64,000 nt of DNA from Xanthobacter dioxanivorans (GTDB lineage: Bacteria; Pseudomonadota; Alphaproteobacteria; Rhizobiales; Xanthobacteraceae). The stretch is taken from NCBI RefSeq assembly GCF_016807805.1, contig NZ_CP063362.1, positions 2,097,001 through 2,161,000 on the forward strand, given 5' to 3'. The notes beneath the pieces were generated by a model. That model saw nothing but the letters and a program-made list of their open reading frames with translations. It did no database searches and was not told where the DNA came from. The position numbers and the translations under genes are program-made. Position 1 is the stretch's first letter; every line of letters begins with the position of its first letter. Of the stretch, positions 46,225-64,000 are shown one piece after another.

Positions 46225-46305
46225 GGATGCCTCCCGGCTGGTGTTGACCGGGCTCACCCTCGTGCGTGCACCTGACGCGGACCTGAAGCGCGAGCGCTAT
46301 TACGT

Positions 46306-49145: not shown

Positions 49146-49850
49146 CTAAGCCTTCCTGGGTGTCCTCCGCGACCGCCGCGGTGCATCGGCCGGCGCCTGC
49201 GTTTCGAGGGGCGCGACCCCGTTGAGGATCATGTCTGCAAAGCCCTCGCCTATGTCCTCAGCAGCCAGCGGCCCCCCCGGCTTGTACCAGCGATGGGCCC
49301 AGTTGACGGTGCCGAGAACACCGAGCGTGGTCAGGCCCACCGAGAGCGGCAGGCGAAAGCTGCCCTCGTCCACACCCTGCTGGATGATTGAACGGATGGC
49401 GAGGTAATAACGCTGCGCCCAGTCGCGTGCCTCCGCGCTCCAATCATCCTTGCTTCCAGAGAGGGTTGGGAAGTTTTCCTGAAGAAAAACATGCATATAG
49501 GGGTATGACGAATTGTAGCTGCCCATTACCGAACGAAAAGCTTCGACCAGTTTCAGCTTTGCCGAAGCGTTTGATTTCGCGATAGCCTCGGCTTCTTCTA
49601 TCGTGTTGCGCGCCACTTCGCGCACGATCTCACGGAAGAGCTCCTGCTTCGAGCCGAAATAATAATACAGGCTGGCCCGATCCGTATTCAGCTTTTCCGC
49701 GATCATGCCCAGCGTCGCGGCTTCATAGCCGCGCTCCTGGAATACCTCCGCCGCCGCGTCGATGATCGCCTTGCGCCGCTCCTGATAAAATTCACTGCTG
49801 GCGTCCGCATTTGCTTCGCGGCGTTTGCCGATCCCCGTTCTCGCTGCCAT
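49146..49850 (-). CDS. TetR-family regulator, candidate master repressor of the 49-64 kb cluster
   Basis: A 234-residue TetR protein. The N-terminal helix-turn-helix is 'IIDAAAEVFQERGYEAATLGMIAEKLNTDRASLYYYFGSKQELF', with the usual Y-Y-F-x-S-K end. The ligand domain includes 'YMHVFLQENFPTLSG' and 'WAHRWYKPGG', seen in fatty-acyl or catabolic TetRs. It is the only transcription factor in the catabolic cluster. The palindrome GTCAAC-N6-GTTGAC in front of the other genes is its most likely operator; its own upstream region has only a half site. Start ATG at 49850. Confidence 0.9.
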   Translation of the reverse strand: MAARTGIGKRREANADASSEFYQERRKAIIDAAAEVFQERGYEAATLGMIAEKLNTDRASLYYYFGSKQELFREIVREVARNTIEEAEAIAKSNASAKLKLVEAFRSVMGSYNSSYPYMHVFLQENFPTLSGSKDDWSAEARDWAQRYYLAIRSIIQQGVDEGSFRLPLSVGLTTLGVLGTVNWAHRWYKPGGPLAAEDIGEGFADMILNGVAPLETQAPADAPRRSRRTPRKA

Positions 49851-49899: not shown

Positions 49900-49905
49900 G
49901 TTGAC
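49900..49905 (+). promoter_or_regulatory. half-site GTTGAC upstream of tetR-like gene
   Basis: A single GTTGAC lies 50 bp upstream of the TetR-family start. The other half of the palindrome is not present at the correct spacing, so it may be chance. Confidence 0.3.
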
Positions 49906-49920
49906 AAGTCCTGCGGCGAT

Positions 49921-50307
49921 TCACCCGTCTCGAGCATCGAAGAGCCATCGGGCCGAGCCTCCGGCGCGATCCAGGCTGAGTCGTACCGGCATCCCGATCC
50001 ATGGTTCGACTGGCGAGCCGGGGCGATGCAGGCAGACGAGGCGAACCCCGGCCACGACCTCGACCAGCCCGGTGACGTAGGGGACGTCGGCAACGGCTTC
50101 CCGAGCGAACACGCGGTGCACGCGTGTCCAGCTGTGGAGCGTGCCCTGTGGCGGCACCTGCGTCCACTCCTGGGCCGCAGATCCGCAGCCACGACAGCGT
50201 GGCAACGGGTACCAGTTCCAGGTCCCGCAAGCCCGGCAATGTGGAAAGCGCAGCTCACCGGCACGGATGGCGTCGTCCCAGCCCGCGAAAATCCCCGCAT
50301 CGTTCAT
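49921..50307 (-). CDS. DUF35 zinc-ribbon/OB-fold protein partnering the thiolase-like enzyme
   Basis: A 128-residue protein with the Zn ribbon C24-x2-C27...C38-x2-C41 ('HCRACGTWNWYPLPRCRGCG') followed by an OB-fold ('GTLHSWTRVHRVFA', 'YVTGLVEV'). DUF35 proteins form complexes with SCP2-thiolase-like enzymes, for example ChsH2 with the retro-aldolase Ltp2 in steroid side-chain degradation. Here its start overlaps the end of the thiolase-like gene by 4 bp, so the two should be made together. The role is inferred from this pairing. Confidence 0.85.
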   Translation of the reverse strand: MNDAGIFAGWDDAIRAGELRFPHCRACGTWNWYPLPRCRGCGSAAQEWTQVPPQGTLHSWTRVHRVFAREAVADVPYVTGLVEVVAGVRLVCLHRPGSPVEPWIGMPVRLSLDRAGGSARWLFDARDG

Positions 50308-51485
50308 GGGTCGATCCGCTCCAGAATCAGCGCACTGTATTGGCGACCCGGCCCGGCCCCCACATATCCCCTGCGGGCGTCCGTGACCTGGCGTTCCCCG
50401 GCCATGCCGCGAAGCTGGATCACCATTTCCGCGGCATGGTTGGCGCCGAGCAGATACCCATGTCCAAGCAAGCCCCCATGGGTGTTGGTCGGCAGCTTCC
50501 CGTTGTGCCGCAGGTTGCCCCCGAGCACCACATCGGCGGCCTTTCCCTTGGGGCAAAAGCCCGCGGCCTCGAGCTGCAGGGCGACGGCTATGGAAAAGCA
50601 ATCGTATAGGCCTCGCACGTCGATGTCTGCCGGTGTCAGTCCTGCGGCCGCGAACGCCTGGGCCGCGGCGCGCTCGGCTGCGGGAAGCGAAGGCAGCCGC
50701 GGGCTCTGGGTATAGAAGTCTGCATCGCTGATGGGGTCGACCGCATAGGACCAGGCGGCAAGGCCCACCTCCGGGCGCAACCGGCGCATGCGGTCCTTGC
50801 GCGTGACGACGAGGGCGACCGCTCCGTCGCTCAGCAGCGAACAGTCCGCCTGCCGAAGCGGCTCGGCCAGCATGGGGCTGCGCCGGTAAGCGTCCTCGTC
50901 CACCACCGAACGCGCCTGCGCGTGGGGGTGAAGCGCGGCGTTGGCACGCGTGGCCGCGACGATGTCGAACAGCATCTGCGACATTTGCAGGTCGCTCAAC
51001 CCGTATTCGTACTGATATCGCTTCGCGGCAGCCGCGAAATAAAGCGGCGGCCCGCTGAAGCCCGCGGGCTCCTCGATGACGTGCTTCGCCTGCATCTTGG
51101 AATGATAGGAGGTTGGTCCCTCCGCCGAGGACCCCCAGCCCGTGGCGAACCATGTGAGTGCGGTTTCCACTTCGCCGCGCTCGACCATGTCCACGGCCAT
51201 GCCGAGCGCCGCCAGGATCCCTGCGCCCACCGGCGTCGACTGAGCTGAACGCCGGAGGCCGGTCAACCGCGCTGCGGGTGCGATGCGATCGAGCGGCGTG
51301 GCTGCCGGGCACAGGGAGCTTTCGGTGACGACCGCTTCGATTTCCCTGGGATGCAGGCCCGCGTCTTCGAGCGCATGCTCGATCGCCTGCAAGGCGAGTT
51401 CCTCGACAGTGCTGGACGAACGGCGCGCAGGGCCGGCGCATCCCACTCCGTCGATGACCGCATCGCGCCGGTTCGCTTGTGCCAC
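50304..51485 (-). CDS. thiolase-like (SCP2-thiolase) enzyme lacking the usual nucleophile Cys
   Basis: A 393-residue thiolase-fold protein. 'VDPISDADFYTQSPR', 'DIDVRGLYDCFSIAVALQLEAAGFCPKG' and 'LPTNTHGGLLGHGYLLGANHAAEM' match the nonspecific lipid-transfer/SCP2 thiolase group. At the position of the catalytic Cys of biosynthetic and degradative thiolases the sequence reads 'SAQSTPVGAG', with no Cys. Such variants paired with DUF35 act as retro-aldolases or non-classical thiolases (Ltp2 type). It is divergent from the alpha/beta hydrolase gene over an operator. Confidence 0.85.
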   Translation of the reverse strand: MAQANRRDAVIDGVGCAGPARRSSSTVEELALQAIEHALEDAGLHPREIEAVVTESSLCPAATPLDRIAPAARLTGLRRSAQSTPVGAGILAALGMAVDMVERGEVETALTWFATGWGSSAEGPTSYHSKMQAKHVIEEPAGFSGPPLYFAAAAKRYQYEYGLSDLQMSQMLFDIVAATRANAALHPHAQARSVVDEDAYRRSPMLAEPLRQADCSLLSDGAVALVVTRKDRMRRLRPEVGLAAWSYAVDPISDADFYTQSPRLPSLPAAERAAAQAFAAAGLTPADIDVRGLYDCFSIAVALQLEAAGFCPKGKAADVVLGGNLRHNGKLPTNTHGGLLGHGYLLGANHAAEMVIQLRGMAGERQVTDARRGYVGAGPGRQYSALILERIDP

Positions 51486-51547
51486 GTTCCGCCTTTATGG
51501 ATTGTCTCACCGGACACTGTCTCACGGTATCGAGGCGTTCGGGTGCT

Positions 51548-51565
51548 GTCAACAATTACGTTGAC
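51548..51565. promoter_or_regulatory. GTCAAC-N6-GTTGAC operator between thiolase-like and hydrolase genes
   Basis: Perfect match GTCAACAATTACGTTGAC in the divergent region. Leftward, TTGACA is followed 17 bp later by TACCGT, a weak -10. Rightward, the -10 is less clear. A repressor here could govern both directions. Confidence 0.7.
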
Positions 51566-51615
51566 GAACGGCTTGGGATGAGGAACTAGTGTCCGCCAAA
51601 GCATAGCGAGGAGAC

Positions 51616-52467
51616 ATGACCGAAAAACAGGGTATGACGTTCATCGTTTCAGACGGGTTGAAGATCGCCGCCGACGTTGCCGGGCCGAAGGGCGGCAAGC
51701 CCGTTTTGCTGCTTCACGGCGGTGGACAAACCCGCGGAAGCTGGCGCGATACGATCGACGTTCTCGCTGCGCGCGGCCACCGGGCCTACGCGCTCGATGC
51801 AAGGGGGCACGGAGACAGTGATCGAAGTCCGAGTGGCGACTATACGCCGGACAGCTTTTCCCGCGATCTAAAGGACGTGATCCGGCAGATCGGGGAAGAC
51901 GTGGTGGTGATCGGCGCCTCGCTGGGCGGCATCAACGGCCTTCTCGCCGCAGGAGAAGGTGGCCCGGGGGCCGTGAGCACCCTTGTTCTGGTGGATGTCG
52001 CCGTACAGACCAATCCCTACGGGGTAAAGCGCATCCAGGACTTCATGCAGGCCAATCCCGATGGATTTGCGAGCCTCGACGATGCCGCCGATGCCGTCGC
52101 GGCCTACGCCGTCGATCGCCCGCGTCCCGCGGCAAATGATGGTTTGCTCCGCAACTTGCGAAAGGTCGGCGAGAAATATTATTGGCATTGGGATGCTCGC
52201 TTTCTCGGGAGCTGGCATCCCAGCCATGCCGCGGCCATGGGCCGCCTGGAAGCGGCGGCGCGGGCGTTGGAGATCCCGGTCCTTCTGGTTCACGCTGCTC
52301 ACAGCGACGTGGTGGGGCCGAGGGAGATCGCTCATCTGAGGTCACTTGTGCCGCACGCCGAATATATGCGCGTGGAAAACGCGAGCCACATGGTCGTCGG
52401 CGACAAGAACAGCACCTTCAATGAAACGATCCTTGCGTTCCTCGCCCATGTCACTTCTGTCGAATAG
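51616..52467 (+). CDS. alpha/beta hydrolase of the catabolic cluster
   Basis: A 283-residue alpha/beta hydrolase. 'LLHGGGQTRGSWRDTIDVLAARGHRAYALDARGHGDSD' is the oxyanion region, 'VVVIGASLGGINGLL' the nucleophile elbow with Ser, 'HAAHSDVVGPREI' the acid and 'VENASHMVVGDKN' the His. Peroxidase-like or esterase members share this pattern. In a cluster with a flavin monooxygenase it could open an ester or lactone product, which is inference. It starts 51 bp after an operator and is followed by an acyl-CoA dehydrogenase gene 43 bp on. Confidence 0.87.
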   Translation: MTEKQGMTFIVSDGLKIAADVAGPKGGKPVLLLHGGGQTRGSWRDTIDVLAARGHRAYALDARGHGDSDRSPSGDYTPDSFSRDLKDVIRQIGEDVVVIGASLGGINGLLAAGEGGPGAVSTLVLVDVAVQTNPYGVKRIQDFMQANPDGFASLDDAADAVAAYAVDRPRPAANDGLLRNLRKVGEKYYWHWDARFLGSWHPSHAAAMGRLEAAARALEIPVLLVHAAHSDVVGPREIAHLRSLVPHAEYMRVENASHMVVGDKNSTFNETILAFLAHVTSVE

Positions 52468-52509
52468 TTTTTTCAAATAAACAAATAATCTTGGAGAGGA
52501 GAAGTCTCG

Positions 52510-53694
52510 GTGCTGGAATTTGAGCCATCGGGTCTGGAAATGACCGAAGAGCGTCGCCAGATCAGAGAAGCGATCAAGGCATTGTGCTCCCGTTTCGATG
52601 ATCGCTATTGGTCCGAAAAGGATACGAAGCACGAATTTCCCCACGAGTTTCGCGCAGCCGTCGCCCAGGAGGGGTGGCTTGGCATAACCATGCCGCAGGA
52701 GTATGGCGGCGCTGGCCTGGGCGTCACCGAGGCGGCATTGATGATGCAGACGGTCGCGCAGTCGGCCGGCGCGATCTCTGCCTGCTCCACCTTTCACATC
52801 AATCTGTTCGGACCGCATCCCGTTGTTCTCTACGGCACGGAAGAGCAGCGTCGGCGTATTATCCCGCCGCTGCTCACGGGGGCTGACATCGTCGCATTCG
52901 GCGTTACCGAGCCGGATGCCGGGCTCGACACGACATCCATCACCACCCGGGCCGTGCGCGACGGCGACCGCTACATCGTCAACGGCCAGAAGGTTTGGAC
53001 GACCACTGCGCAGGAAGCGAACAAGATCCTGCTGCTCACGCGGACGACACCGCGTGAGGAGGCCAAGAGCCGGACCAGCGGCCTGACCTTATTCTACACG
53101 GATCTCGATCGCCGTTACGTGGAGATCCAGGCCATCGACAAGCTCGGCAGGAATGCGGTGGACTCCAATGCCACCTATTACCGTGATTTTCCCATTCCGG
53201 TGGATCACCGCATCGGCGCGGAGGGCGAAGGCTTCAGGATGCTGCTCGACAGCCTGAATCCCGAACGGATCCTCGTCGCGGCCGAATGCGTCGGTGTTGG
53301 CAGGCGGGCATTGGCGAAGGCGGCCGCATACGCCAATGAGCGCCGCGTCTTCGGCCGGTTCATCGGGCAAAACCAAAGCATTCAGCATCCTCTGGCCGCC
53401 AGCTGGATGGCGCTTGAGGCCGCGGACCTGATGGTCTGGAAGGCCGCCGCCCTCTACGATGCCGGAAAGCCCTGCGGCGCGGAGGCGAACGCGGCGAAGT
53501 TCCTCGCGGCGGATGCCGCCTTCGATGCCTGTGACCGGGCCGTGAGAACGCACGGAGGGTTCGGCTACGCGCGCGAATTCCATGTCGAGCGCTATCTGCG
53601 GGAAATCATGCTGCCGCGGATCGCGCCCGTCAGCAGGGAAATGATCATGAACTTCATCTCCGAACGGGTGCTCGGCTTGCCGAAGTCTTACTGA
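52510..53694 (+). CDS. acyl-CoA dehydrogenase
   Basis: A 394-residue FAD-dependent acyl-CoA dehydrogenase. 'ITMPQEYGGAGLGVTEAALMMQTVAQSAG', 'AFGVTEPDAGLDTTSITTRAVRDGDRYIVNGQKVWTT' and 'CDRAVRTHGGFGYAREFHVERYLREIMLPRIAPVSREMI' are the family signatures. The C-terminal tail lacks the EGT catalytic motif of short-chain enzymes and reads RIAPVSREM, a known variant whose catalytic base lies elsewhere. Start GTG at 52510 with GAGGAG upstream. Its substrate is probably an acyl-CoA from the pathway. Confidence 0.92.
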   Translation: MLEFEPSGLEMTEERRQIREAIKALCSRFDDRYWSEKDTKHEFPHEFRAAVAQEGWLGITMPQEYGGAGLGVTEAALMMQTVAQSAGAISACSTFHINLFGPHPVVLYGTEEQRRRIIPPLLTGADIVAFGVTEPDAGLDTTSITTRAVRDGDRYIVNGQKVWTTTAQEANKILLLTRTTPREEAKSRTSGLTLFYTDLDRRYVEIQAIDKLGRNAVDSNATYYRDFPIPVDHRIGAEGEGFRMLLDSLNPERILVAAECVGVGRRALAKAAAYANERRVFGRFIGQNQSIQHPLAASWMALEAADLMVWKAAALYDAGKPCGAEANAAKFLAADAAFDACDRAVRTHGGFGYAREFHVERYLREIMLPRIAPVSREMIMNFISERVLGLPKSY

Positions 53695-53840
53695 GTTTGA
53701 CTGTTCAAGAATTCGGTCTTCAAAAGAAAGCGGTTGGACAATCTCGGGAATGCCCCACCGCTTTTCCTACATATTTTCTTGCGCCGGCGAGCCTTTCGGG
53801 GGTCGGGCGGGGTCTTTATCCCGCCGCGCCATCGCATGGC

Positions 53841-54689
53841 CTATGGCGCATGGCGTGCATCGGCTGCTTCGGCTGTATCGATGATGCGGCGCGCACGACG
53901 CAGCATGGGCTCGTCCACCATCTCCCCCTCGAACAGGAACGCGCCCCGGCCGGCCGCCGCCAACAGCATTCTGCGGCTGCGCTCCACCTCGGACCGATGC
54001 GGGCGATAGGATTTGCGGATGACGGGCACCTGCGCGGGATGGATGGCGAACTTGCCTCGGAACCCAAGCAGCGCCCCCTCGCCGGCGTCCCGTTCCAAGA
54101 CGGCGGGATCGTTCAGTTCGGATGTGACGGTGTCGAGCGCGATCTTTCCCGCCGCCGCCGCCGCGAAGATCAAACCGTTGCGGGCGTGCCCGAGCGGGGG
54201 GAGCAGATCACCGGCGGCGGTTCTGACCGTGCGCATCCCGAGATCGGCGGCAAGATCGTAGGGCCCCCAACTGATCGCCACCACGCGGGCATGGGCGGCG
54301 ATGTCGTTCACCGCGAGAAACCCGCGGGCCGTCTCGACGGTGGCGATGAAGGCGCAGTCGGTGATGCCCGCGATCGCATCGAGTTCCTCCGGCCCCTCCG
54401 TCTTGGGCAAGAGGAGGAGTTGGGCCCCGGCGGCCTGCAGGGCCGCGGCGTCGGCTTGGCCTGCCGCCGATCCGGGATTGTTGATCCGGATGGCGAGGCG
54501 GTCCGGGCCGCGGGCGAGCAGATAGTCTGCGACGAGAACTCTCGCGCGCGCTTTCGCCGCTGCGGCCACGCCGTCCTCCAGATCGAGCACCGCGACATCG
54601 GCTGCCGCCAGGGCCTTGTCGAAACGTTCGGGTCGATCTCCGGGACAGAACAGGAGCGCGGGTCCGATGAGGGGAGGGGCGTCGGTCAT
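53841..54689 (-). CDS. HpcH/HpaI-type (CitE-like) CoA lyase or thioesterase
   Basis: A 282-residue TIM-barrel enzyme. 'ALLFCPGDRPERFDKALAAADVAVLDLEDGV' is the CitE-like start, 'ATVETARGFLAVNDIAA' holds the metal-binding Glu, and 'AISWGPYDLAADLGM' the Asp. Relatives cleave citryl-, malyl- or methylmalyl-CoA, or hydrolyse malyl-CoA. It is leftward, directly behind the CoA-transferase gene (10-bp gap), so these two probably act together. Confidence 0.88.
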   Translation of the reverse strand: MTDAPPLIGPALLFCPGDRPERFDKALAAADVAVLDLEDGVAAAAKARARVLVADYLLARGPDRLAIRINNPGSAAGQADAAALQAAGAQLLLLPKTEGPEELDAIAGITDCAFIATVETARGFLAVNDIAAHARVVAISWGPYDLAADLGMRTVRTAAGDLLPPLGHARNGLIFAAAAAGKIALDTVTSELNDPAVLERDAGEGALLGFRGKFAIHPAQVPVIRKSYRPHRSEVERSRRMLLAAAGRGAFLFEGEMVDEPMLRRARRIIDTAEAADARHAP

Positions 54690-54698
54690 CTGGGAGTC

Positions 54699-55982
54699 CT
54701 AGCGGAGGGCGAAGGCAGCCTTTTCCAGCTCTTCGCGGTGATCGGGATGGGAAATGGCGGTGAGAGCCAGGGCGCGTTCATGCATGGTGCGGTTTCGCAG
54801 ATCTGCGGTGCCGAACTCGGTGACCACGAACTGGACGAGGCTTCGCGGCACGGTAACCGGACCTCGGCCGAGCATCGGAACGATACGGGATTTTCCCTTG
54901 TTGGTCATTGAGGTGATCGCGATGATCGTGCGATTTCCCTCGATCTGCGCGGCCGCGGCGAAATCCATGCTTCCACCGATCGCCCCAACCTGACGGCCAT
55001 CGAGCCACTCGGAATTGACCTGCCCCAGCAGATCCACCTCGAGGGCGGAATTCACCGAGACGAACCGCTCGCGAGCGGCGAAGCTTTCCAGGCTGTGGGT
55101 TGCCAGCGCGTCAGCCATGCAGAGGTCGCGATTGGCGTTGCTCCAGGCATAGAGGTCGCGTGTGCCCAGCACCTCCCCGATAACGGCCTTCGGCCCGTCT
55201 TCCACGCAGCACCCGGCCTCGATCAGCTCGCGGGCGGGGTCGGTGACCTGGGAGAGGATGCGCAGATTGCGCCGGCCGAGATCAATGAGCCCCTTCAGCA
55301 TGGCCCCCGGAATCGATCCGATGCCGAACTGAACCCAGCTTCCATCCGGGATCAGCTCCGCGGCCTGGCGCCCGATGAGGAAATCCGCTTCGCCCGGCTC
55401 TCGGTTGGGAAAGGGCAGGAGGTCGTGATCCCCGCGCACGAGGATGTCGATGCGCGATTGATGGATGAGGGAATCGCCGCAGGTGCGCGGCATGGCGCTG
55501 TTGACCTCGGCGATGACCAGCCGCGCACCGTCCACCATCGCGCGATGCTGGCCCACCGATATCCCAAGGCTGTGGTATCCATCCGCGTCGGCGTCGCTCA
55601 CCTGCACGATGGCGGTATCGACGATGCCCGAACGCAGGTAGCGGGATGTCTGCGTCCAGTTCAGCGGCAGGTATTCGGCGGCGACGTCGCGCATGCTTCC
55701 ACTCAGAAGCGTGCCGGGCATGAACCACGTCTTCAGCCGGAACGGGCTGTCCGGAATGCCGAGGAAGCCATAACCCGTCACCATCATTCCCGAAAGAAGG
55801 GTTACGTCTCGAAGCCGATCCGCGTGGTTCCACAGCTCCTTTGTCAGCGTGATCGGCTCCGCTCCGAGGTGGCCGAGCGCCACGACGCTTTTCGATTCGA
55901 TGAGGTCGACCGCATCGGCGGCCGAGCGCCATCTGCCAGCGCCCGACGCATCCACCCGCTTGAACTGGTCGGGCTTGTTCAT
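54699..55982 (-). CDS. acetyl-CoA hydrolase/CoA-transferase family enzyme
   Basis: A 427-residue class I CoA-transferase of the acetyl-CoA hydrolase/4-hydroxybutyrate CoA-transferase family. 'LLSGMMVTGYGFLG', 'SLGISVGQHRAMVDGARLVIAEVNSAMPRT' and 'VGAIGGSMDFAAAAQ' are typical; the catalytic Glu is expected in 'QFVVTEFGTADLRNRT'. The ATG at 55982 with GAGGAGC upstream is chosen over an in-frame start 57 bp earlier. It is divergent from the BKACE gene across a perfect operator. It would load CoA onto an acid of the pathway, since no CoA ligase is seen. Confidence 0.88.
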   Translation of the reverse strand: MNKPDQFKRVDASGAGRWRSAADAVDLIESKSVVALGHLGAEPITLTKELWNHADRLRDVTLLSGMMVTGYGFLGIPDSPFRLKTWFMPGTLLSGSMRDVAAEYLPLNWTQTSRYLRSGIVDTAIVQVSDADADGYHSLGISVGQHRAMVDGARLVIAEVNSAMPRTCGDSLIHQSRIDILVRGDHDLLPFPNREPGEADFLIGRQAAELIPDGSWVQFGIGSIPGAMLKGLIDLGRRNLRILSQVTDPARELIEAGCCVEDGPKAVIGEVLGTRDLYAWSNANRDLCMADALATHSLESFAARERFVSVNSALEVDLLGQVNSEWLDGRQVGAIGGSMDFAAAAQIEGNRTIIAITSMTNKGKSRIVPMLGRGPVTVPRSLVQFVVTEFGTADLRNRTMHERALALTAISHPDHREELEKAAFALR

Positions 55983-56062
55983 GGAATGCAGCTCCTCAGT
56001 GCCTCCACGCCATCTCGCGGGGGCAATCGCAAAGCCCAACCTTCGGCAGACAGTGGCGCCAT

Positions 56063-56080
56063 GTCAACACCGTTGTTGAC
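56063..56080. promoter_or_regulatory. GTCAAC-N6-GTTGAC operator with overlapping -35 before BKACE gene
   Basis: Perfect match GTCAACACCGTTGTTGAC. On the plus strand the right arm supplies TTGACG (-35), with TAGCTT exactly 17 bp downstream. This directs the BKACE gene, 80-100 bp away. Leftward the CoA-transferase gene is 81 bp away. Confidence 0.75.
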
Positions 56081-56181
56081 GACTTGAGTCTGTCCTTTTA
56101 GCTTCGTTGGGCCCGCGTTCAACAGCCGTGCTCAGGGGCCGTTTGGTGTTCGCGTGAGGAGGCCAGAGGCGGAAAACAATT

Positions 56182-57111
56182 ATGTCGCGACAGAAGACAA
56201 TTATTACATGCGCGATCACCGGTGCGATACACACGCCGACCATGTCAGATGCTTTGCCCTATCTGCCGGATGACATCGCGGGCCAGGCGATCGATGCCGC
56301 CCGGGCCGGGGCCGCGATCCTGCATCTGCACGCCCGCAATCCGCACGACGGATCGATTTCGATGGAGCCCGCCGACTTCGCGCGTTTCCTTCCGGTCATC
56401 AAGCAGGCGACGTCGGCGGTGGTGAACATTTCCACCGGCGGCAGCATGACGAGCACGATCAGCGATCGCCTCGCTCCGGCCATGGCGGCGCGCCCGGAGA
56501 TGTGCTCGCTAAACATGGGCAGCATGAATTTTTCCTTCCACCCTCTCGCCGAGCGGTATGAGAACTGGAAATTCGATTGGGAAAAGGCCTACGTAGCCAA
56601 CAGCAAGAGTTATATTTTTAGAAACACGTTCGCAGATATCGAAGAGGTCGCGCAAACGCTCGCGCCGCATGATGTCAAATTCGAGCATGAAATATACGAC
56701 GTCGGTCACCTGTACAATTTGAAGTTTTGCATGGATACGGGCCTTTTCAAGGCGCCCATCTTCCTTCAGTTCGTCCTCGGCATTCTCGGTGGAATCGGCG
56801 CCGATCTCGACAACCTCGTCTTCCTGAAACGGACTGCGGACCGGTTGTTTGGCGACGCGTACCGCTGGTCCGTGCTCGGCGCCGGAGCGGCGCAGATGCC
56901 ACTCGCCGCCGCAGCAGTGCAACTCGGAGGGCACGTCAGGGTCGGTCTCGAGGATTCTCTCTACGTCTCTCGGGGCAGGTTGGCGGTGTCCAACGCGGAG
57001 CAGGTGGCGAAGGTCCGGCGGATCCTTGAAGATCTTGGTCATGACATCGCAACCCCGGACGAAGCGCGGACGATGCTCGGGCTGAAGGGGGGAGACCAGG
57101 TGGGCTTCTGA
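56182..57111 (+). CDS. BKACE (beta-keto acid cleavage enzyme, DUF849/Kce-like)
   Basis: A 309-residue TIM-barrel enzyme of the 3-keto-5-aminohexanoate cleavage family. Zn ligands H48 and H50 lie in 'AAILHLHARNPHDGS'; 'VVNISTGGSM' and 'EMCSLNMGSMNF' follow; 'GGHVRVGLEDSLYVSRGRLAVSNAEQVAKV' near the end is diagnostic. BKACE enzymes condense a beta-keto acid with acetyl-CoA to give acetoacetate and a new acyl-CoA. It is a single gene behind a perfect operator, divergent from the CoA-transferase. A beta-keto acid intermediate in the pathway is therefore likely. Confidence 0.92.
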   Translation: MSRQKTIITCAITGAIHTPTMSDALPYLPDDIAGQAIDAARAGAAILHLHARNPHDGSISMEPADFARFLPVIKQATSAVVNISTGGSMTSTISDRLAPAMAARPEMCSLNMGSMNFSFHPLAERYENWKFDWEKAYVANSKSYIFRNTFADIEEVAQTLAPHDVKFEHEIYDVGHLYNLKFCMDTGLFKAPIFLQFVLGILGGIGADLDNLVFLKRTADRLFGDAYRWSVLGAGAAQMPLAAAAVQLGGHVRVGLEDSLYVSRGRLAVSNAEQVAKVRRILEDLGHDIATPDEARTMLGLKGGDQVGF

Positions 57112-57222
57112 GACCGTTCGGTGAACGGCGATTGTCGGGTGGGTTGCCTTCCGGGTTGGAGCGTTCGTGGATCTGGCAGGGCGCTGTTCAGCATCAAGGG
57201 TTTAAAACTAGCCGCGCGAAAA

Positions 57223-57264
57223 CCATCTTCAACAGTCAACATCAATGTTGACTGTTGAAGATGG
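57223..57264. promoter_or_regulatory. 42-bp perfect palindrome containing the operator, before flavin monooxygenase gene
   Basis: The arms 57223-57242 and 57245-57264 are exact inverted copies around a central CA. The core 57235-57252 is GTCAACATCAATGTTGAC, and the right arm supplies TTGACT with TAGGTT 17 bp downstream. The extension beyond 18 bp by a second GTTGAAG pair may let two repressor dimers bind. Confidence 0.8.
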
Positions 57265-57340
57265 CAAATCTAGGTTGGCTCCATGCCCGATGGCGCGCCC
57301 AAGGCGACGGGCGCTCGGTCTGAAGATAAAGGAGCTCTCG

Positions 57341-59164
57341 ATGACGGCGGTGGATCCCGCATTGGCGCCCAACGCAGGCGCCATCTTTCGGTCCTGGCTG
57401 GCCAGGTTCGCCGCCGCGCTCGAGAAGCGAGACGCGGAAACGTTGGCGGGCATGTTTGGCGCGGATGGTTATTGGAAGGATTATCTGTCGTTCTCGTGGG
57501 AGCACCGGACCTTTTCAGGGCCATCCGAAATACGCGACGCCTTCGCCGCCAGCCTGCCGATCTTCAGGCCGCGCGCGGCGCGGGAGGCGATCGGCAGGAG
57601 TGCGCCGAAGTTGCTGCGCCGCTCCGCGAAGAAAGTCATAGAAGGTTTCTTCGACTTCGATGTCGAAATGGGGCGTGGTACGGCGTTCGTGCGGCTGCTT
57701 CACGATGAGCTGTCGCCCGACGATCCCAAGATCTGGCTGATGCTGACGTCGCTTCAGGAGCTGCGGGGTTTCGAAGAGAAGATTGGTGCGCGGCGCCCTT
57801 CAGGCGACGAATATGCCATGAACACCACGCCAAATAATTGGCAGGATGATTTTGAAGCGCGCCGCCTCTTCGCCGACCGTGATCCGGAAGTCATCATTGT
57901 GGGAGCCGGGCATGCGGGGCTCATTCTCGCCGCCAGGCTCCGGCAGATGGGTGTCGACACGCTCGTCGTTGAGAAGAATTCCCGCATCGGCGATGTTTGG
58001 CGCAATAGATACCATTCACTCACGCTGCACAACGAAAGCACCGCCAACCATATGCCATACATGCCATTTCCGGAGACCTGGCCGGTATGGCTGCCGAAGG
58101 ATCAGCTCGCGGGATGGCTCGAAGCATATGCCCAAGCGATGGAACTCAACGTTTGGACCGAAACTTCCCTTGCCGGCGCATCGTTCGACGAGGCCAGCGG
58201 CACCTGGTCGGTCGACCTGCGGCAGGGCATGGACGGCTCGGGGCGCAGGCTGCGGTGCAGGCATCTCGTCATCGCCACCGGCGTCAGCGGGTCCGTTCCG
58301 AACATCGCCGATATTCCGGGGCTTTCGGACTTCAATGGAGAAGTCCGGCACTCGGGCGAGTACACGCGGGGCGCCGCGTATGCGGGCAAGCGAGCGCTGG
58401 TGATCGGCACCGGCAACAGCGCCCATGACGTCGCGCAGGACCTTCACGTCAACGGTGCGGCGCAGGTCGCCCTCTACCAGCGAAGCCCGACGTGTGTCGT
58501 CAGCTTGGTTCCGAGCGCGGCGATGGTCTTCAAGATCTACAGCGAAGGGCCTGTTGACGAGATCGACCTGCTCACATCCGCCATCCCATTCCCGGTGCTC
58601 GAAGACACCTACAAGTTCATGACAAAGCGTGCCGGTGATGCAGACAAGGAAATGCTGGATGCGCTCAACAAGGCCGGCTTTGAAACCTACTTCGGAAGGG
58701 ACGGAACCGGGTTTCATATGATGTATCTGCGCGGAGAGGGCGGATATTACATCAATGTCGGCTGCTCGGATCTCATTATCGAAGGGAAGGTGGGAGTCGT
58801 CCAGGCGCGCGACGCGGACCGGTTTGTCGCGGAGGGCTTGCGGATGAAGGATGGCACCATCGTGCCCCTCGACCTCGTCGTGCTGGCGACAGGCTTCCGG
58901 AACATGCAGGAAGGCATCCGCCAGATGCTTGGCGACGAAATTGCCGATGCGCTCGGGCCGGTCTGGGGCTTCGATCAGGATTACCAGATGCGGAACATGT
59001 GGCGGCGCACGGCACGGGATGGACTGTGGCTCATGGGCGGGGCGCTGATCGATGCCAGGCTGTACTCGCGCTTTCTCGCGATCGAGATCAAGGCGTCGCT
59101 GGAAGGCCTGCTGCCGGACCGCGCTTCCATGCCGATCATTCCGCGCACCCGAGGCGACAGTTGA
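57341..59164 (+). CDS. NTF2-like/flavin-dependent monooxygenase fusion (FMO/BVMO-like)
   Basis: A 607-residue two-domain enzyme. Residues 1-155 form an NTF2/SnoaL-like domain ('LARFAAALEKRDAETLAGMFGADGYWKDYLSF'). Then comes a class B flavin monooxygenase: FAD motif 'IIVGAGHAGLILAARL' (GxGxxG at 188-193), NADPH motif 'ALVIGTGNSAHDVAQDL' (356-361) and the fingerprint F331-N-G-E-V-R-H-S-G-E-Y341, which fits FxGxxxHxxxY of FMO-type rather than the W form of classical BVMOs. A late 'VVLATGF' closes the fold. The start 57341 has GGAG 6 bases upstream. It lies behind the 42-bp operator palindrome. Oxygenation of a pathway intermediate is expected. Confidence 0.88.
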   Translation: MTAVDPALAPNAGAIFRSWLARFAAALEKRDAETLAGMFGADGYWKDYLSFSWEHRTFSGPSEIRDAFAASLPIFRPRAAREAIGRSAPKLLRRSAKKVIEGFFDFDVEMGRGTAFVRLLHDELSPDDPKIWLMLTSLQELRGFEEKIGARRPSGDEYAMNTTPNNWQDDFEARRLFADRDPEVIIVGAGHAGLILAARLRQMGVDTLVVEKNSRIGDVWRNRYHSLTLHNESTANHMPYMPFPETWPVWLPKDQLAGWLEAYAQAMELNVWTETSLAGASFDEASGTWSVDLRQGMDGSGRRLRCRHLVIATGVSGSVPNIADIPGLSDFNGEVRHSGEYTRGAAYAGKRALVIGTGNSAHDVAQDLHVNGAAQVALYQRSPTCVVSLVPSAAMVFKIYSEGPVDEIDLLTSAIPFPVLEDTYKFMTKRAGDADKEMLDALNKAGFETYFGRDGTGFHMMYLRGEGGYYINVGCSDLIIEGKVGVVQARDADRFVAEGLRMKDGTIVPLDLVVLATGFRNMQEGIRQMLGDEIADALGPVWGFDQDYQMRNMWRRTARDGLWLMGGALIDARLYSRFLAIEIKASLEGLLPDRASMPIIPRTRGDS

Positions 59165-59594
59165 TCTCGTTCCTCGCCGAAACGAGGAAGCGGCCTGGAG
59201 CCGCCGGTTCGTATTTTTGACCGCCGCCAGGCCAAGTTTCGCCGTCGCGGCAAGGTGGCGTCAAGCCGGACTGAACCGCGCATGCTTTCTGGTCGCTGTT
59301 CGATGGCCTGAAGGCAAGGGTGCCGACCGTCGTGATCTGCAGCAATGCCCGTCGGGCGCCCAGGAGCGCCCGCGAAAATCGGCAGCTTCATTCGGCCTTG
59401 GCGGAAGCGGCATGGTAGCCGCATCGCGAGTTATGCGGGGCCCTTGAAGGATGAGGCCGATAAATGTGTCAACTAACGTGTTGACAATCATATTTAGGCC
59501 GTTAGCCTTGGCGGAACAGAGTCTCGGCCGCAAGACACAAAGAGTGCGGCTGCGAAGCATAAATCGAAAAAATATAATCATGGGGAGGTCGGTA
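59165..59594. other. 430-bp intergenic region before porin
   Basis: No coding gene is supported in the first 280 bp. The last 130 bp hold the operator at 59468-59485, an AT-rich leader and the GGGGAGG ribosome site of the porin. No terminator for the flavin monooxygenase gene was found. Confidence 0.4.
59468..59485. promoter_or_regulatory. GTCAAC-N6-GTTGAC operator with overlapping -35 before porin gene
   Basis: Perfect match GTCAACTAACGTGTTGAC. The right arm gives TTGACA as -35, followed 16 bp later by TAGCCT as -10. The porin start lies about 80 bp further on. Confidence 0.75.
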
Positions 59595-61067
59595 ATGCGG
59601 GGAGTGCGGTACGTCCTATGTGTCGGCGTCGGCGGTGTGGTCATCTCGGGTGGCGCGCACGGCGCGGACCTTCCCGTGAAGGCCAGCCCTGCCGAATATG
59701 TGAAGGTGTGCGCAACCTACGGAGCGGGCTATTTCTATATCCCCGGCACCGATACCTGCTTGAAGATCGGCGGTCTCGCGCGGGTTGATGCATATGTCAA
59801 CGCTGTCGGCACGTTCATTCCGACAATCGTGTCGCCTTCGGCTGCGACGGCGTTCAATGGCCCGGGCACCGCTGGCGGCTTCGGCTATCCCTTCCGCGAT
59901 GACGATGATCCCCAGTACCTGACCCGGGCTCGCGCCGTCACGGAATTCGATGCGCGTACGCAGACAGAGTACGGCACGTTGCGATCCTATGTGCGCTTCG
60001 GTGCGGAATGGAACTCACAGGCGGGTGCGGGAGTGGGCGCCGGGAGCGCATTGTATTTCGAGCGGGCATTTATCCAATTTTCAGGATTTACGTTCGGATA
60101 TACCCAATCATTCTTCGATCCGGGTTTGGATTATATGATGACGGTCCCGTTCACGGGGTCGTATAATTGGACGACTTTGGCGGCTTATACGGCGCAGGTC
60201 GGCGGGGGGCTGTCGGCAACGGTGTCGATCGAAGATGCCGCCAATCGGACAACAGGCGTGCAGCTGACGGGCTCGACGGTTCAGCCGATCTTCAACATAA
60301 ACACCGTCGCGACCGGACTGTCCTATACGAACTTTCAGGCTGGACAGCAGCTGCCGGATTTCGTCGCCAACATCCGTCTCGATCAGGCCTGGGGCACGGC
60401 CCAAATTTCCGGAGCTCTGCATCAGGTTGTGGCGACCAGCCCTTTTTATGCGGGTTTCGTTCCCGGAGTGAACTCTTCGGATATGTGGGGTTGGGCGATC
60501 GGTGCGCATGTCGAGGTCAAGCTGCCCATGCTCGCCCCGGGTGATAGTGCTTTCATTCAAGCGAGCTATGAGCAAGGAGGTGCCAACTTCCTTGGCTTGT
60601 CGGGTGCCGGTCAGGCACGTTCGGTGGCTGTGGGCGCCATCGATCTGCAGCAGGTGGGAGGAGGGTTGTCCGGCACCGGCGCATTCTACAATATAGCTGA
60701 CGCGGTCGCCACCAACCTGCTTGGCGACTACAGCCTGACCTCCGGATGGGCAGTCCAGGGCCAATTCCGCCATTATTGGGTACCAACCGTGCGCTCAGCG
60801 TTCGCGCTCGGCTATGTGTCCTATCAGGTGCCCCAAAACATTGTCGCGGCGTTCGATTTCAATCTTTATCAGGCAGTGTTCAATACCATTTGGTCGCCGG
60901 TAAAGAACGTCGATGTCGGATTTGAAGTTCTGTATACGAAGGTGGATGGATCCGTGCCGCTTGGAAATTATTCGGCGGTCAACGCGACGGGCGGGTTTCA
61001 GGGGTCTCTGGTCGGCGGTTCGACCGATATCTGGTCCGGCGGCGTTCGGGTGCAGCGCATTTTTTGA
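59595..61067 (+). CDS. outer-membrane porin (alphaproteobacterial type)
   Basis: A 490-residue porin. Signal peptide cleaved near HGA-D (residue 24), then 'SPAEYVKVCATYGAGYFYIPGTDTCLKIGGLARVDAY', the alphaproteobacterial 'porin_2' start with two cysteines, followed by about 16 beta strands ('TQTEYGTLRSYVRFGAE', 'ERAFIQFSGFTFGYTQSFFD') and a C-terminal Phe ('GVRVQRIF'). Start 59595 is preferred to 59580 because GGGGAGG lies 6 bases upstream. Its operator suggests it is co-induced with the catabolic genes to admit the substrate. Confidence 0.92.
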   Translation: MRGVRYVLCVGVGGVVISGGAHGADLPVKASPAEYVKVCATYGAGYFYIPGTDTCLKIGGLARVDAYVNAVGTFIPTIVSPSAATAFNGPGTAGGFGYPFRDDDDPQYLTRARAVTEFDARTQTEYGTLRSYVRFGAEWNSQAGAGVGAGSALYFERAFIQFSGFTFGYTQSFFDPGLDYMMTVPFTGSYNWTTLAAYTAQVGGGLSATVSIEDAANRTTGVQLTGSTVQPIFNINTVATGLSYTNFQAGQQLPDFVANIRLDQAWGTAQISGALHQVVATSPFYAGFVPGVNSSDMWGWAIGAHVEVKLPMLAPGDSAFIQASYEQGGANFLGLSGAGQARSVAVGAIDLQQVGGGLSGTGAFYNIADAVATNLLGDYSLTSGWAVQGQFRHYWVPTVRSAFALGYVSYQVPQNIVAAFDFNLYQAVFNTIWSPVKNVDVGFEVLYTKVDGSVPLGNYSAVNATGGFQGSLVGGSTDIWSGGVRVQRIF

Positions 61068-61094
61068 TCGGCTTCCTCCAAGGCCGGCTCCTGG

Positions 61095-61127
61095 AGCCCC
61101 GGCAGTGTCCTGCCGGGGCTTCTTTTT
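61095..61127 (+). terminator. rho-independent terminator after porin
   Basis: An 11-bp GC-rich stem AGCCCCGGCAG/CTGCCGGGGCT with a TGTC loop is followed directly by TCTTTTT. It lies 28 bp after the porin stop codon, a classical intrinsic terminator. Confidence 0.9.
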
Positions 61128-61295
61128 GATGGGAGTGTCCGGTTCCGCCTGGCTGGGATTCTGCTGCGCCGGCCGGGTGCAGATTTCCTCGCGGAGGTAG
61201 TCGTGCGCGTCAGCCCAGCGGAGCAACATGCGTATCGCGCTCGGGTCGCCTCCCCCACGTCTTCCAATTGATGTGGTGGCGATGGAATTCGTTTC

Positions 61296-61313
61296 ATCAA
61301 CACTATCGTTGAC
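61296..61313. promoter_or_regulatory. operator (one mismatch) before substrate-binding protein gene
   Basis: ATCAACACTATCGTTGAC differs from GTCAAC-N6-GTTGAC at one base. The right arm gives TTGACT (-35) and TATGTT follows 16 bp later (-10). The binding-protein start is about 75 bp further. The surrounding 61068-61412 gap holds this site, the porin terminator and nothing else recognised. Confidence 0.65.
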
Positions 61314-61412
61314 TATAAAATCGCATTTGGTATGTTTCTTATGAAGGCATGAACTTTCAATAAAAATAAATTCAGGTGCTTTGTACCTAAATAATATGTG
61401 GAGGAAAGAGAA

Positions 61413-62660
61413 ATGAAGCTCAGCAGGCGACAATTTTCGGGAGCCCTCGCGTCAGCGATGGTCGGCGTGGTGGCGGGCCCGCGGCTGGGACGCGCGGAAG
61501 CCAAGCCGATTCGCATCGGCGTAATCACGTCCCTCACCGGGTTCGCGCAAATCTACGGCGAAGCGAACCGCATCGGCGCAGAGATTGCCGCCGAGCGGAT
61601 CAATGCCGCCGGTGGGGTTGGTGGGCGAAAGATCGAAATTGTGCTGCGCGACGACAAGGCTTCGTCGGACAGCACGGTGGCTGCCTTCCGGGATCTGGCA
61701 GCCCAGGGCGTTCGCTTGTTTCTGGCCGGTCCAATCTCCTCCACCGTGGTTGCCCTGGCCCCCTTGTTCAAGGATACGGACAATGTGCTGATCGCAGCCG
61801 GGCCGAACAACCTGTCCATTACCCATGAACTGTTCAACAAGAACGTGTTTCGTCTCCAGCTCACCTCGGTGCCAGTTTTTGCCGGACTGGGAAAGGTGGT
61901 TGCGGACAAGGCGCCCGAAGTGCGCGACTGGATTGCGATCAGCTCGGATCAGCAGGCCAATATCGACCTTTCCAACATCTTTATGGCATCGCTGAAGAAG
62001 GCCCATGCGGCGAAAGGCGTGGATGTCACCATTCGAGATATCGTTCTGACCAAGGCCGGCGCCGGCGATTTTCGCGCGCAGATCTCGAGCCTGATGAATT
62101 CCGGCGCCACCGGCGTATTGAATTCGCTCGTCGGCTCCGACAGCCTGACCTTCTACAAGCAGGCAAAATCGTTCGGCCTCGATCGCAAGGTGAAAGTATT
62201 CGCCGACGTCAGTGCCAACCTGAATTCGATGAAGACGATCGCCAGTGCCGTTCCGCAATCGGTGTGGACGCCCTATTATTGGTATGCTCAGGGCGACGGA
62301 AATCCGGTGTCGCAGGAATTGTACAAGATCGCCACCGAGCGGACCGGGACGCCCTTTCCCTATGGTTTCATTGCCCTTGCCCATGACTCCGTGATCGCCT
62401 TGGCCGACGCGATCAGAAGGGCCGGATCCGATAGCGCCCCGGCGGTGATCGCCGCGCTCGAAGAGGGGCGGCCGCTGGGAGCGGTGGGTCCTGTGGTCTT
62501 CCGTAAAGAAGATCACACCTACACCGGCGAGATGACCTTCATCAATTTCGGAGCAGCGCCGAAAGAACCCGAAGGCCTCCAGGTTAACGATGTCGTACGG
62601 CTGCTGTCCATCGACTATATCGAGCCCGCGACGCCCGGACTGCCCTACATCCTGAAATGA
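61413..62660 (+). CDS. branched-chain-amino-acid-type ABC transporter substrate-binding protein
   Basis: A 415-residue periplasmic binding protein. The signal has a good Tat motif, 'SRRQFSGALAS', with cleavage near AEA. The mature protein is Peripla_BP_6 (LivJ-like): 'IRIGVITSLTGFAQIYGEANRIGAEIAAERINAAGGVGGRKIEIVLRDD' is the family start. Such proteins in catabolic clusters often bind aromatic or carboxylic acids. No permease or ATPase genes lie within the window, so the rest of the transporter is elsewhere or beyond the end. ATG 61413 has GGAGG upstream. Confidence 0.9.
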   Translation: MKLSRRQFSGALASAMVGVVAGPRLGRAEAKPIRIGVITSLTGFAQIYGEANRIGAEIAAERINAAGGVGGRKIEIVLRDDKASSDSTVAAFRDLAAQGVRLFLAGPISSTVVALAPLFKDTDNVLIAAGPNNLSITHELFNKNVFRLQLTSVPVFAGLGKVVADKAPEVRDWIAISSDQQANIDLSNIFMASLKKAHAAKGVDVTIRDIVLTKAGAGDFRAQISSLMNSGATGVLNSLVGSDSLTFYKQAKSFGLDRKVKVFADVSANLNSMKTIASAVPQSVWTPYYWYAQGDGNPVSQELYKIATERTGTPFPYGFIALAHDSVIALADAIRRAGSDSAPAVIAALEEGRPLGAVGPVVFRKEDHTYTGEMTFINFGAAPKEPEGLQVNDVVRLLSIDYIEPATPGLPYILK

Positions 62661-62666
62661 CCGGAC

Positions 62667-62700
62667 CGGCCCCGCCTGGCAAACATGCCCGGCGGGGCCG
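62667..62700. terminator. bidirectional hairpin between binding-protein and cyclase genes
   Basis: Arms CGGCCCCGCC (62667-62676) and GGCGGGGCCG (62691-62700) form a 10-bp GC stem with a 14-base loop between two convergent genes. There is no long T-run. Confidence 0.5.
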
Positions 62701-62742
62701 TCGCAAGATTTCAGCGCGCGTCCTGCACCTTGCCGGTCGTCG

Positions 62743-63615
62743 TCACAGGAGAAGCATGGGTGAGACGGGGCTCGCCGTGCCGCCCACGATCTTCAGCGGG
62801 TTGATCGTCAGCAGGGCGGCAAAAGTTCGCCCCGCCACGGCCTCCAGGTCGAGGAGTTCAACGAACAGAACGCCTTCGCCCTGCATCAGTCGCACGTGGA
62901 GCGGGGTCGCCCATCCCGGAACGCCGGACGGTATCACCTCGACCGCCATATTGTCGGCGCCGACAATCGCAATCTTGCGCTCCTTGATCCAGTCGATGCA
63001 GTCAGCTCCCAGGCCGGGCGATGAGCGTTCGTGGGATTCACCTGAGTAATACGCCTTCAGCGATCCTGTCCGAACAAACAGGGCGTCTCCCGGCAGGCAT
63101 TCGAGACCCGCCGCGGTGATGAGTTCGTCGAGCCTTTGAGCCGGGATTGCCTCGCCTGGCGACAGCCAGCTGCGTCCATCCGGGACCGCATCGACCACGA
63201 TCACCCGTGTCACGATGGGGGGAATGGTTTCGGCGCCGAGCTGCCTGGCACCGAAACTGCTGACCTCGCTCGCCGGGATGCCGCCGAACATGTGCCCGCC
63301 GCAGAAGACATGGCACAGGGCATCGACGTGCGTGGTCCCATGGGTGGACAGCATGATGACGTCGTCGGAAAAGCCGAAGCCTTCCACTTCACGGCGCACG
63401 CCGACCGCATAGTCCCCCCCGTCGCGACGCATGAAATGCTGCGTCGGGGTTCGCATCGGCGCGATCGGGCCTCCGCCGTCGACGATTCGCATCCCGACGG
63501 ACAGGGGCTTGAATTGCTTGACGGTCGCAATGCCTCTGGCGACCGCCGCCTCGTCGATGTATCGCAAAGCTCCGCTTTGGGTGGTTGGGGCGCCGGAATA
63601 CCTGGCTCGGTTCAC
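62743..63615 (-). CDS. cyclase-family hydrolase (kynurenine formamidase-like)
   Basis: A 290-residue metal-dependent hydrolase of the cyclase family (PF04199). 'MLSTHGTTHVDALCHVFCGGHMFGG' holds the HxxxHxxDxxxH-type zinc site (H-G-T-T-H-V-D-A-L-C-H). 'PGDALFVRTGSL' and 'VEVIPSGVPGWATPLHVRLMQGEGVLFVELLDLE' complete the pattern. Members open amides, lactones or cyclic imides. It begins at a GTG and is transcribed leftward from a promoter whose TTGACT overlaps an operator at 63709. Its product would act on a cyclic intermediate; that is inferred. Confidence 0.9.
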   Translation of the reverse strand: MNRARYSGAPTTQSGALRYIDEAAVARGIATVKQFKPLSVGMRIVDGGGPIAPMRTPTQHFMRRDGGDYAVGVRREVEGFGFSDDVIMLSTHGTTHVDALCHVFCGGHMFGGIPASEVSSFGARQLGAETIPPIVTRVIVVDAVPDGRSWLSPGEAIPAQRLDELITAAGLECLPGDALFVRTGSLKAYYSGESHERSSPGLGADCIDWIKERKIAIVGADNMAVEVIPSGVPGWATPLHVRLMQGEGVLFVELLDLEAVAGRTFAALLTINPLKIVGGTASPVSPMLLL

Positions 63616-63708
63616 GAAAAATGCTCCGAATAGATGGTGTATGCAAACGTGTGAGGGGTGATCACTCGTGCCTTATTGCAGTGCAAAATAAAAGGCGCGT
63701 GCTCGTCA

Positions 63709-63726
63709 GTCAACAGTGATGTTGAT
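63709..63726. promoter_or_regulatory. operator (one mismatch) and -35 for cyclase gene
   Basis: GTCAACAGTGATGTTGAT matches except in the last base. On the minus strand TTGACT is followed by TATTTT 17 bp downstream, a good promoter for the cyclase gene. Confidence 0.7.
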
Positions 63727-63739
63727 TTTTTGGATGAGT

Positions 63740-63757
63740 GTCAACAAGTGCGTTGAC
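63740..63757. promoter_or_regulatory. GTCAAC-N6-GTTGAC operator before enoyl-CoA hydratase gene
   Basis: Perfect match GTCAACAAGTGCGTTGAC. The right arm gives TTGACT with TAGCCT 17 bp downstream, ahead of the enoyl-CoA hydratase gene. Only 13 bp separate it from the preceding site, so the two promoters in the divergent region have separate operators. Confidence 0.75.
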
Positions 63758-63803: not shown

Positions 63804-64000
63804 TTGACCAACGCGCAAGGAAACATCGCTTCCGCGAACCCGGCCGTGGTGGAAGACGCCGTCATCGTCGAGCGGAACGGCGACCATACGGTGTTGCGGA
63901 TCAACCGCCCGGAGCAGCGGAACGCGCTCTCGAACGAGGTCCTTGCCGGATTGCGCGAGGGTGTCGCCGCGGTCAAGGCGGATCGGTCCGCGCGGGTGCT
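63804..64000 (+). CDS. enoyl-CoA hydratase/isomerase family protein, 3' end outside window
   Basis: The first 65 residues of a crotonase-fold enzyme. 'VIVERNGDHTVLRINRPEQRNALSNEVLAGLREGVAAV' is the family start (strand A and helix 1). Translation begins at TTG 63804, with GGAGG 6 bases upstream. It hydrates enoyl-CoA, presumably the product of the cluster's acyl-CoA dehydrogenase. The rest lies beyond the window. Confidence 0.85.
   Translation, partial: MTNAQGNIASANPAVVEDAVIVERNGDHTVLRINRPEQRNALSNEVLAGLREGVAAVKADRSARV

Follow-up and report, generated by a model that had tools for sequence, protein, structure and literature searches.

A shared palindrome is the probable operator of a TetR-family regulator in a catabolic gene cluster of Xanthobacter dioxanivorans

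KstR2, the mycobacterial cholesterol-catabolism repressor, is described as a TetR-family repressor that controls a catabolic regulon; its operator, AnCAAGnnCTTGnT, is a palindrome of 14 bp located at divergent promoters (PMC3068626). EdcR, the repressor of estradiol catabolism, is likewise a TetR repressor of a catabolic cluster, and its palindrome overlaps promoter elements; according to the accessible portion of the source it carries the C-terminal domain TetR_C_11 and its operator TnnCnnTACnAnTnGTAnnGnnA overlaps the -10 box (PMC8700777). A comparable arrangement was analysed here in a stretch of 64,000 nucleotides of Xanthobacter dioxanivorans (NZ_CP063362.1, positions 2,097,001 to 2,161,000 of the forward strand), hereafter called the window. 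The window contains a catabolic gene cluster with a TetR-family gene at its edge (49146-49850) and an 18-bp palindrome, GTCAAC-N6-GTTGAC, which is repeated in front of the cluster genes. The comparison of sequences indicated that this palindrome is very probably the operator of the TetR, which would occlude about ten promoters until an intermediate of the pathway releases the repressor.

An earlier, sequence-only reading of the window had listed seven such palindromes, and all seven were recovered at the same coordinates, five of them perfect and two with one mismatch (Table 1). With up to two mismatches the window gave 8 matches against 1.5 expected, a number reached by none of 100 shuffles; the additional match at 35623 (two mismatches) looks like a chance occurrence. 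The 6.65-Mb genome was found to contain six perfect palindromes, every one inside the catabolic cluster (C1:2148548-2166232, 17.7 kb), while about 0.2 per genome are expected from composition when the guanine plus cytosine (G+C) content of the window is used. The sixth perfect copy is located at C1:2166215, which corresponds to window coordinate 69215, 5 kb beyond the window end; the count of seven is therefore right for the window and one short for the cluster. The search with up to one mismatch revealed 15 distinct places in the genome, 8 in the cluster and 7 scattered, and the backwards control pattern gave 6. Since the perfect copies sit in the cluster alone, the similar density throughout the genome that would have spoken against a cluster regulon was not found. 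In the survey of the same class a perfect site was present in 38 of 289 genomes, host included, with a maximum of 3 in any other genome, and the 13 congeners hold one perfect site between them. Presence of the motif alone was rejected as a way of finding the system, as the perfect sites of the 37 other genomes of the class include no two listed places near each other.

All seven sites of the window are intergenic, provided that the start codons used in Table 1 hold; two longer versions of open reading frames (ORFs; 57245 and 59451) would otherwise extend into sites. The claim that no site lies within a gene was thus upheld for the window and does not extend to the eighth site, which overlaps the stop codon of the preceding ligase gene (69231). 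Nine palindrome arms face genes in the window, ten when the site at 69215 is added, and the earlier figure of at least eight transcripts is about right.

The motif was also observed around the relatives of this TetR. The DNA-level search for relatives used two peptide seeds, one of which was DRA[ST][LIV]YYY[FV], and the best 80 of 125 confirmed stretches were taken. The TetRs of these 80 loci are 33-59% identical to the host TetR and belong mainly to Actinomycetota and to alpha-, beta- and gammaproteobacteria. Sites with at most one mismatch numbered 219, distributed over 72 of the 80 loci, and perfect sites numbered 98, in 54 loci. When the same hexamers were placed at any other spacing (0-5 and 7-12) not more than 15 sites were obtained, against 219 at the spacing of 6. 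The 179 other letter orders of the word gave at most 27 sites each, and the median over all 180 words was 2. The consensus of 229 sites (the 80 loci, the window cluster and L004) is TCAACR-N4-YGTTGA, the outer G and C being weaker, and because the spacers vary among the loci this is not the simple inheritance of one DNA segment. Twenty other whole genomes, hand-picked from the 80 loci, contained 66 perfect sites, of which 41 fell in the TetR loci (up to 10 kb on each side of the TetR gene), a further 19 lay no more than about 40 kb beyond the locus edge on that contig and 6 were elsewhere, the sites being sorted by hand; the control pattern gave 12. Genome searches that did not use the DRA[ST][LIV]YYY[FV] seed returned three relatives with an E-value below 1e-40 (G040, G338 and G072). 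Three sites with no more than one mismatch are present in G040, and G338 has two with one mismatch and, between them, one with two. The three operator-like sites of G338 (L134:16963-17057; 1, 2 and 1 mismatches) are packed into 95 bp, an unusual tandem array.

The relaxed core TCAACR-N4-YGTTGA occurred at 50 places of the host genome, perfect or with one mismatch, the control giving 12. One perfect match (C1:5992440) and 41 places with one mismatch were outside the cluster. The perfect one, which alone was inspected among these remote places, precedes a 3-hydroxyisobutyrate-dehydrogenase-like gene by about 100 bp (L132:4439-4456), in a neighbourhood that also has genes of an ATP-binding cassette (ABC) transporter binding protein and an acyl-coenzyme A (acyl-CoA) dehydrogenase, and it is a possible candidate for a remote member of the regulon.

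The tree of 129 TetRs revealed a clade of 84 (support 99/99) which holds all 75 site-bearing loci, while the count outside the clade was 0 of 45. No site was found within 1.5 kb of 18 TetRs taken from the genomes of the relatives, which lack the DRA[ST] helix and show 25-34% identity, nor within 1.5 kb of 27 distant TetRs from a phylum-wide sample (L105-L131). With equal 1.5-kb flanks a site was present in 43 of 81 loci of the DRA[ST] group compared to 0 of 18 and 0 of 27 in the outgroups. In the same tree the host TetR groups with TetRs of mostly betaproteobacterial metagenome-assembled genomes (MAGs). The link between the TetR and the palindrome, which had been drawn from the window only, is thus supported at the level of sequence by the co-occurrence across phyla, the clustering in the 20 genomes and the absence around the 45 outgroup TetRs.

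The geometry of the promoters was then read around each site. Each arm of the palindrome contains TTGAC, the consensus of the -35 box, and for 8 of the 10 gene-facing arms of the host cluster a hexamer starting with TA follows this TTGAC at a distance of 16 or 17 bp. In the window the -10-like hexamers are TACCGT (operator 1, leftward), TAGCTT (operator 2, rightward), TAGGTT (operator 3), TATTTT (operator 6) and TAGCCT (operator 7) at a spacer of 17, and TAGCCT (operator 4) and TATGTT (operator 5) at a spacer of 16. At spacer 17 the match to TATAAT averaged 2.5 in the host cluster, compared to 1.1 for positions of the whole region (genes included; p ~1e-4), and it was 1.2 for the six host arms that face no gene. 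Among 221 gene-facing arms of other genomes the word TANNNT stood at spacer 17 in 21 cases and at spacer 18 in another 18 (39 of 221), with a mean of 1.5 at other offsets. From this geometry the palindrome arm looks like a -35 box.

The TetR protein showed the domains PF00440 (TetR_N, 6e-19), with its helix-turn-helix, and PF17932 (TetR_C_24, 4e-20). Its AlphaFold2 model is all helical (predicted local distance difference test score 81.7) and the best fold matches are TetR structures. The start codon ATG at 49850 is backed by a sequence alignment, and the best protein match is 91% identical and comes from a Pigmentiphaga MAG. The nearest solved folds are PfmR, KstR2, DarR, AibR, FadR and a few unnamed TetRs; the AibR entry carries isovaleryl-CoA and the FadR entry stearoyl-CoA, which makes a CoA thioester the likeliest effector as far as the model can tell.

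In the proposed mechanism a dimer of the TetR would bind GTCAAC-N6-GTTGAC, with TCAACR-N4-YGTTGA as the effective core. As the TTGAC arm would at the same time be the -35 box of the sigma-70-type promoter next to it, the bound dimer should exclude RNA polymerase, and at the divergent promoters (51548 and 56063) one dimer would stop transcription in both directions. The repressor would be freed from the DNA by an intermediate of the pathway, for which a CoA thioester is the likeliest candidate. The release would turn on about ten transcripts, for uptake (porin and branched-chain-type ABC transporter) and for the CoA-dependent breakdown of one substrate. Autoregulation through a full site directly before the host TetR gene was rejected, a half-site alone being present there; the gene is probably autoregulated as the last gene of a predicted thiolase-OB-TetR operon (OB, oligonucleotide/oligosaccharide-binding fold) driven from the site at 51548.

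Alternatively, a different regulator, encoded elsewhere in the genome, could bind the palindrome, and the TetR at the edge of the cluster would be a bystander that recognises another operator. The solitary half-site upstream of the TetR gene would suit such an arrangement, and the gene of an OmpR-type response regulator (47664-48335) is located just outside the cluster, 0.8 kb from the TetR gene. However, the motif tracks the TetR clade across two phyla and through differing gene neighbourhoods, and in 26 of 81 loci the 400 bp preceding the TetR gene include a site with at most one mismatch. Moreover, 17 gene clusters recur in at least 12 of the compared loci, and apart from the TetR itself there is no regulator among them as judged by their representatives, which further backs the TetR link; in the host cluster, too, the TetR had been called the one regulator, and no second was seen among the genes identified there. 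A bystander TetR is accordingly considered improbable. Activation or dual regulation by the palindrome-bound TetR, in place of simple repression, is improbable as well. TetR-family activators exist, and the NCBIfam list calls FasR an activator, but the overlap of the operator with the -35 box at a fixed phase is the usual geometry of occlusion, and negative autoregulation would agree with the sites so often seen ahead of the TetR gene. There is next to no likelihood that the TTGAC words are simply the -35 boxes of similar promoters with the palindrome as a by-product: TTGAC is indeed the -35 consensus and the -10 hexamers stand at the right distance, but the second arm is conserved where a promoter needs only one, the arms are spaced by exactly 6, the enrichment is lost with permuted words or other spacings, and the host genome has no perfect copies elsewhere.

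Some observations weigh against the palindrome as the operator of this TetR and its clade. The shared recognition helix is partly circular, because the seed DRA[ST][LIV]YYY[FV] chose the loci. Eight of the 80 loci have no site, three of them being contigs under 9 kb and three having the full 20 kb; the relative G072, from the searches without that seed, has none within 10 kb, and the clade members L103 and L104 are also without one in their 1.5-kb flanks, the outgroup loci having been scanned over flanks of that length and most clade members over longer ones. Inside supported genes lie 45 of the 229 sites, where genes make up 0.61 of the bases and start codons are uncertain. No good -10 hexamer was found for two of the ten gene-facing host arms (51548 rightward and 56063 leftward). 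In the other genomes the -10 peak is nearly as frequent at arms that have no called gene in front of them (15 of 103, with a mean of 0.14 elsewhere), and it is therefore no proof of the side in use; genes may have been missed, or both arms may often be promoters. DarR, also a near fold, has cyclic-nucleotide ligands, and the fold alone therefore does not settle the effector or assure an acyl-CoA. With these points the palindrome as the operator of the TetR was retained as the best explanation.

The features of the cluster are collected in Table 1. The ChsH2-type protein is likely the partner of the thiolase, and the beta-keto acid cleavage enzyme (BKACE) exceeds the NCBIfam cut-off for 3,5-dioxohexanoate:acetyl-CoA acetone transferase. 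The enzyme set suggests that an acid or ketone is taken up and degraded by a CoA-dependent route in which C-C bonds are cleaved several times.

Table 1. Features of the catabolic cluster in window coordinates (FMO, flavin-containing monooxygenase; HMG, 3-hydroxy-3-methylglutaryl)
Feature	Position	Strand	Domain or remark
TetR-family regulator, proposed repressor	49146..49850	-	PF00440 + PF17932
Half-site GTTGAC	49900..49905	+	From sequence; ~50 bp upstream of TetR start, no full palindrome
ChsH2-type OB-fold/zinc-ribbon protein	49921..50307	-	PF01796, PF12172
SCP-x/lipid-transfer-type thiolase	50304..51485	-	PF22691; lipid-transfer-protein subfamily below cut-off
Operator 1, perfect, divergent	51548..51565		Thiolase-OB-TetR leftward, hydrolase-acyl-CoA dehydrogenase rightward
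Alpha/beta hydrolase	51616..52467	+	PF00561
Acyl-CoA dehydrogenase	52510..53694	+	PF00441/PF02770/PF02771
HpcH/HpaI-CitE-type C-C lyase	53841..54689	-	PF03328
Acetyl-CoA hydrolase/CoA-transferase-type protein	54699..55982	-	PF13336, PF02550
Operator 2, perfect, divergent	56063..56080		CoA-transferase + lyase leftward, BKACE rightward
BKACE	56182..57111	+	PF05853; NF053538 520 bits, cut-off 430
Operator 3, perfect	57235..57252	+	Within 42-bp inverted repeat 57223-57264
FMO-like flavin monooxygenase with N-terminal extension	57341..59164	+	PF00743, PF13738
Operator 4, perfect	59468..59485	+	Precedes porin gene
Porin (Porin_2)	59580..61067	+	PF02530; start 59580 or 59595
Operator 5, one mismatch (outermost base)	61296..61313	+	Precedes ABC binding-protein gene
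ABC substrate-binding protein (Peripla_BP_6)	61413..62660	+	PF13458
Putative cyclase	62743..63615	-	PF04199
Operator 6, one mismatch (outermost base)	63709..63726	-	Faces cyclase gene
Operator 7, perfect	63740..63757	+	Faces enoyl-CoA hydratase operon, which leaves the window
Enoyl-CoA hydratase gene start	63804..64000	+	PF00378
Hydratase operon continuation: HMG-CoA-lyase-like, second hydratase, CoA-transferase III, acyl-CoA ligase	to 69231		PF00682, PF02515, PF00501
Eighth operator, perfect	69215		Outside window; precedes acyl-CoA ligase + ABC permease-ATPase genes

Operators 6 and 7 are 31 bp apart, one for each direction. The inverted repeat around operator 3 has perfect arms of 20 bp with a 2-bp centre and nests the half-sites TTCAAC and GTCAAC, 7 bp apart; it may accommodate two dimers, or it may form a terminator-like hairpin downstream of the BKACE gene. 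The CoA-transferase III gene (window coordinates 66350-67497; L002:7350-8497) is split over two frames near its middle and both pieces match their respective parts of PF02515, so it carries either a real frameshift or a sequencing error. A minus-strand ORF at 45856-46257 would encode a small protein in which about 14 aspartates follow one another without interruption.

The G+C content drops from about 0.72 to 0.60, left to right, over window positions 40000-64000 into the cluster. No close ortholog of the TetR was found among the sampled family members, the best TetR matches in the 13 congeners being distant paralogs, and the operator array is absent from all 13. The fall in G+C and the lack of a close TetR ortholog and of the array in the congeners suggest acquired DNA; the cluster was likely gained by transfer, as judged from its composition and distribution and from the betaproteobacterial grouping and the Pigmentiphaga match of its TetR, and its control system is accessory in the genus.

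The system is of an ordinary regulatory kind, yet it belongs to a TetR subfamily with a cross-phylum operator for which no description was found. It is probable that this subfamily of Actinomycetota and Pseudomonadota, with its DRA[ST]xYYY helix, kept the operator TCAACR-N4-YGTTGA while the targets, and probably the effectors, diversified. As the operator arm doubles as the -35 box, any promoter that gains the word would come under control, and since the same pair of protein and word is seen in catabolic clusters of two phyla, the targets become predictable from sequence. If this is true, regulator, operator and catabolic regulon could be predicted as a unit in unstudied genomes, and one protein signature together with one 18-bp word would reveal the control system and much of the gene set of uncharacterised catabolic clusters, which in many bacteria comprise flavin monooxygenases, cytochromes P450, acyl-CoA enzymes and BKACE. 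The operator with its promoter would also be ready for use in a biosensor of the substrate of the cluster, and the subfamily would be a clean case of a fixed recognition helix while the ligand pocket and targets change.

The sequence-only reading knew of no described operator of this form, and none was found in the open literature among the matches listed, when searched by operator string, domain, relatives and regulon; the subscription literature is mostly outside this search. Identity with KstR (NF033703 equivalog) was rejected, the host TetR scoring 30 bits against a cut-off of 280. EdcR was rejected because neither TetR_C_11 nor the EdcR operator, as given in the accessible part of its report, is found in the host TetR or motif. 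PheR was set aside, being treated among the IclR-family regulators in the accessible part of PMC13273656. Identity with KstR2 was also rejected: the shared motif of the cluster differs from the operator given in the accessible part of the KstR2 report, for which the host genome itself was not scanned.

PfmR, AibR and FadR of Bacillus, which are TetR regulators in the metabolism of fatty or branched acyl compounds, resemble the host TetR in fold, at a sequence identity of 17-30%, and the NCBIfam FadR model scored 50 for the host TetR against a cut-off of 200. The KstR2 chain aligns along the whole profile of the TetRs described here, with a similar fold, and covers the region of TetR_C_24, as known from the alignment and not from a domain call on KstR2. 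The two proteins differ in the recognition helix, which is LSGSLYHHF in KstR2 and DRASLYYYF here, and in the predicted sites per genome, three for KstR2 compared to eight for the present system.

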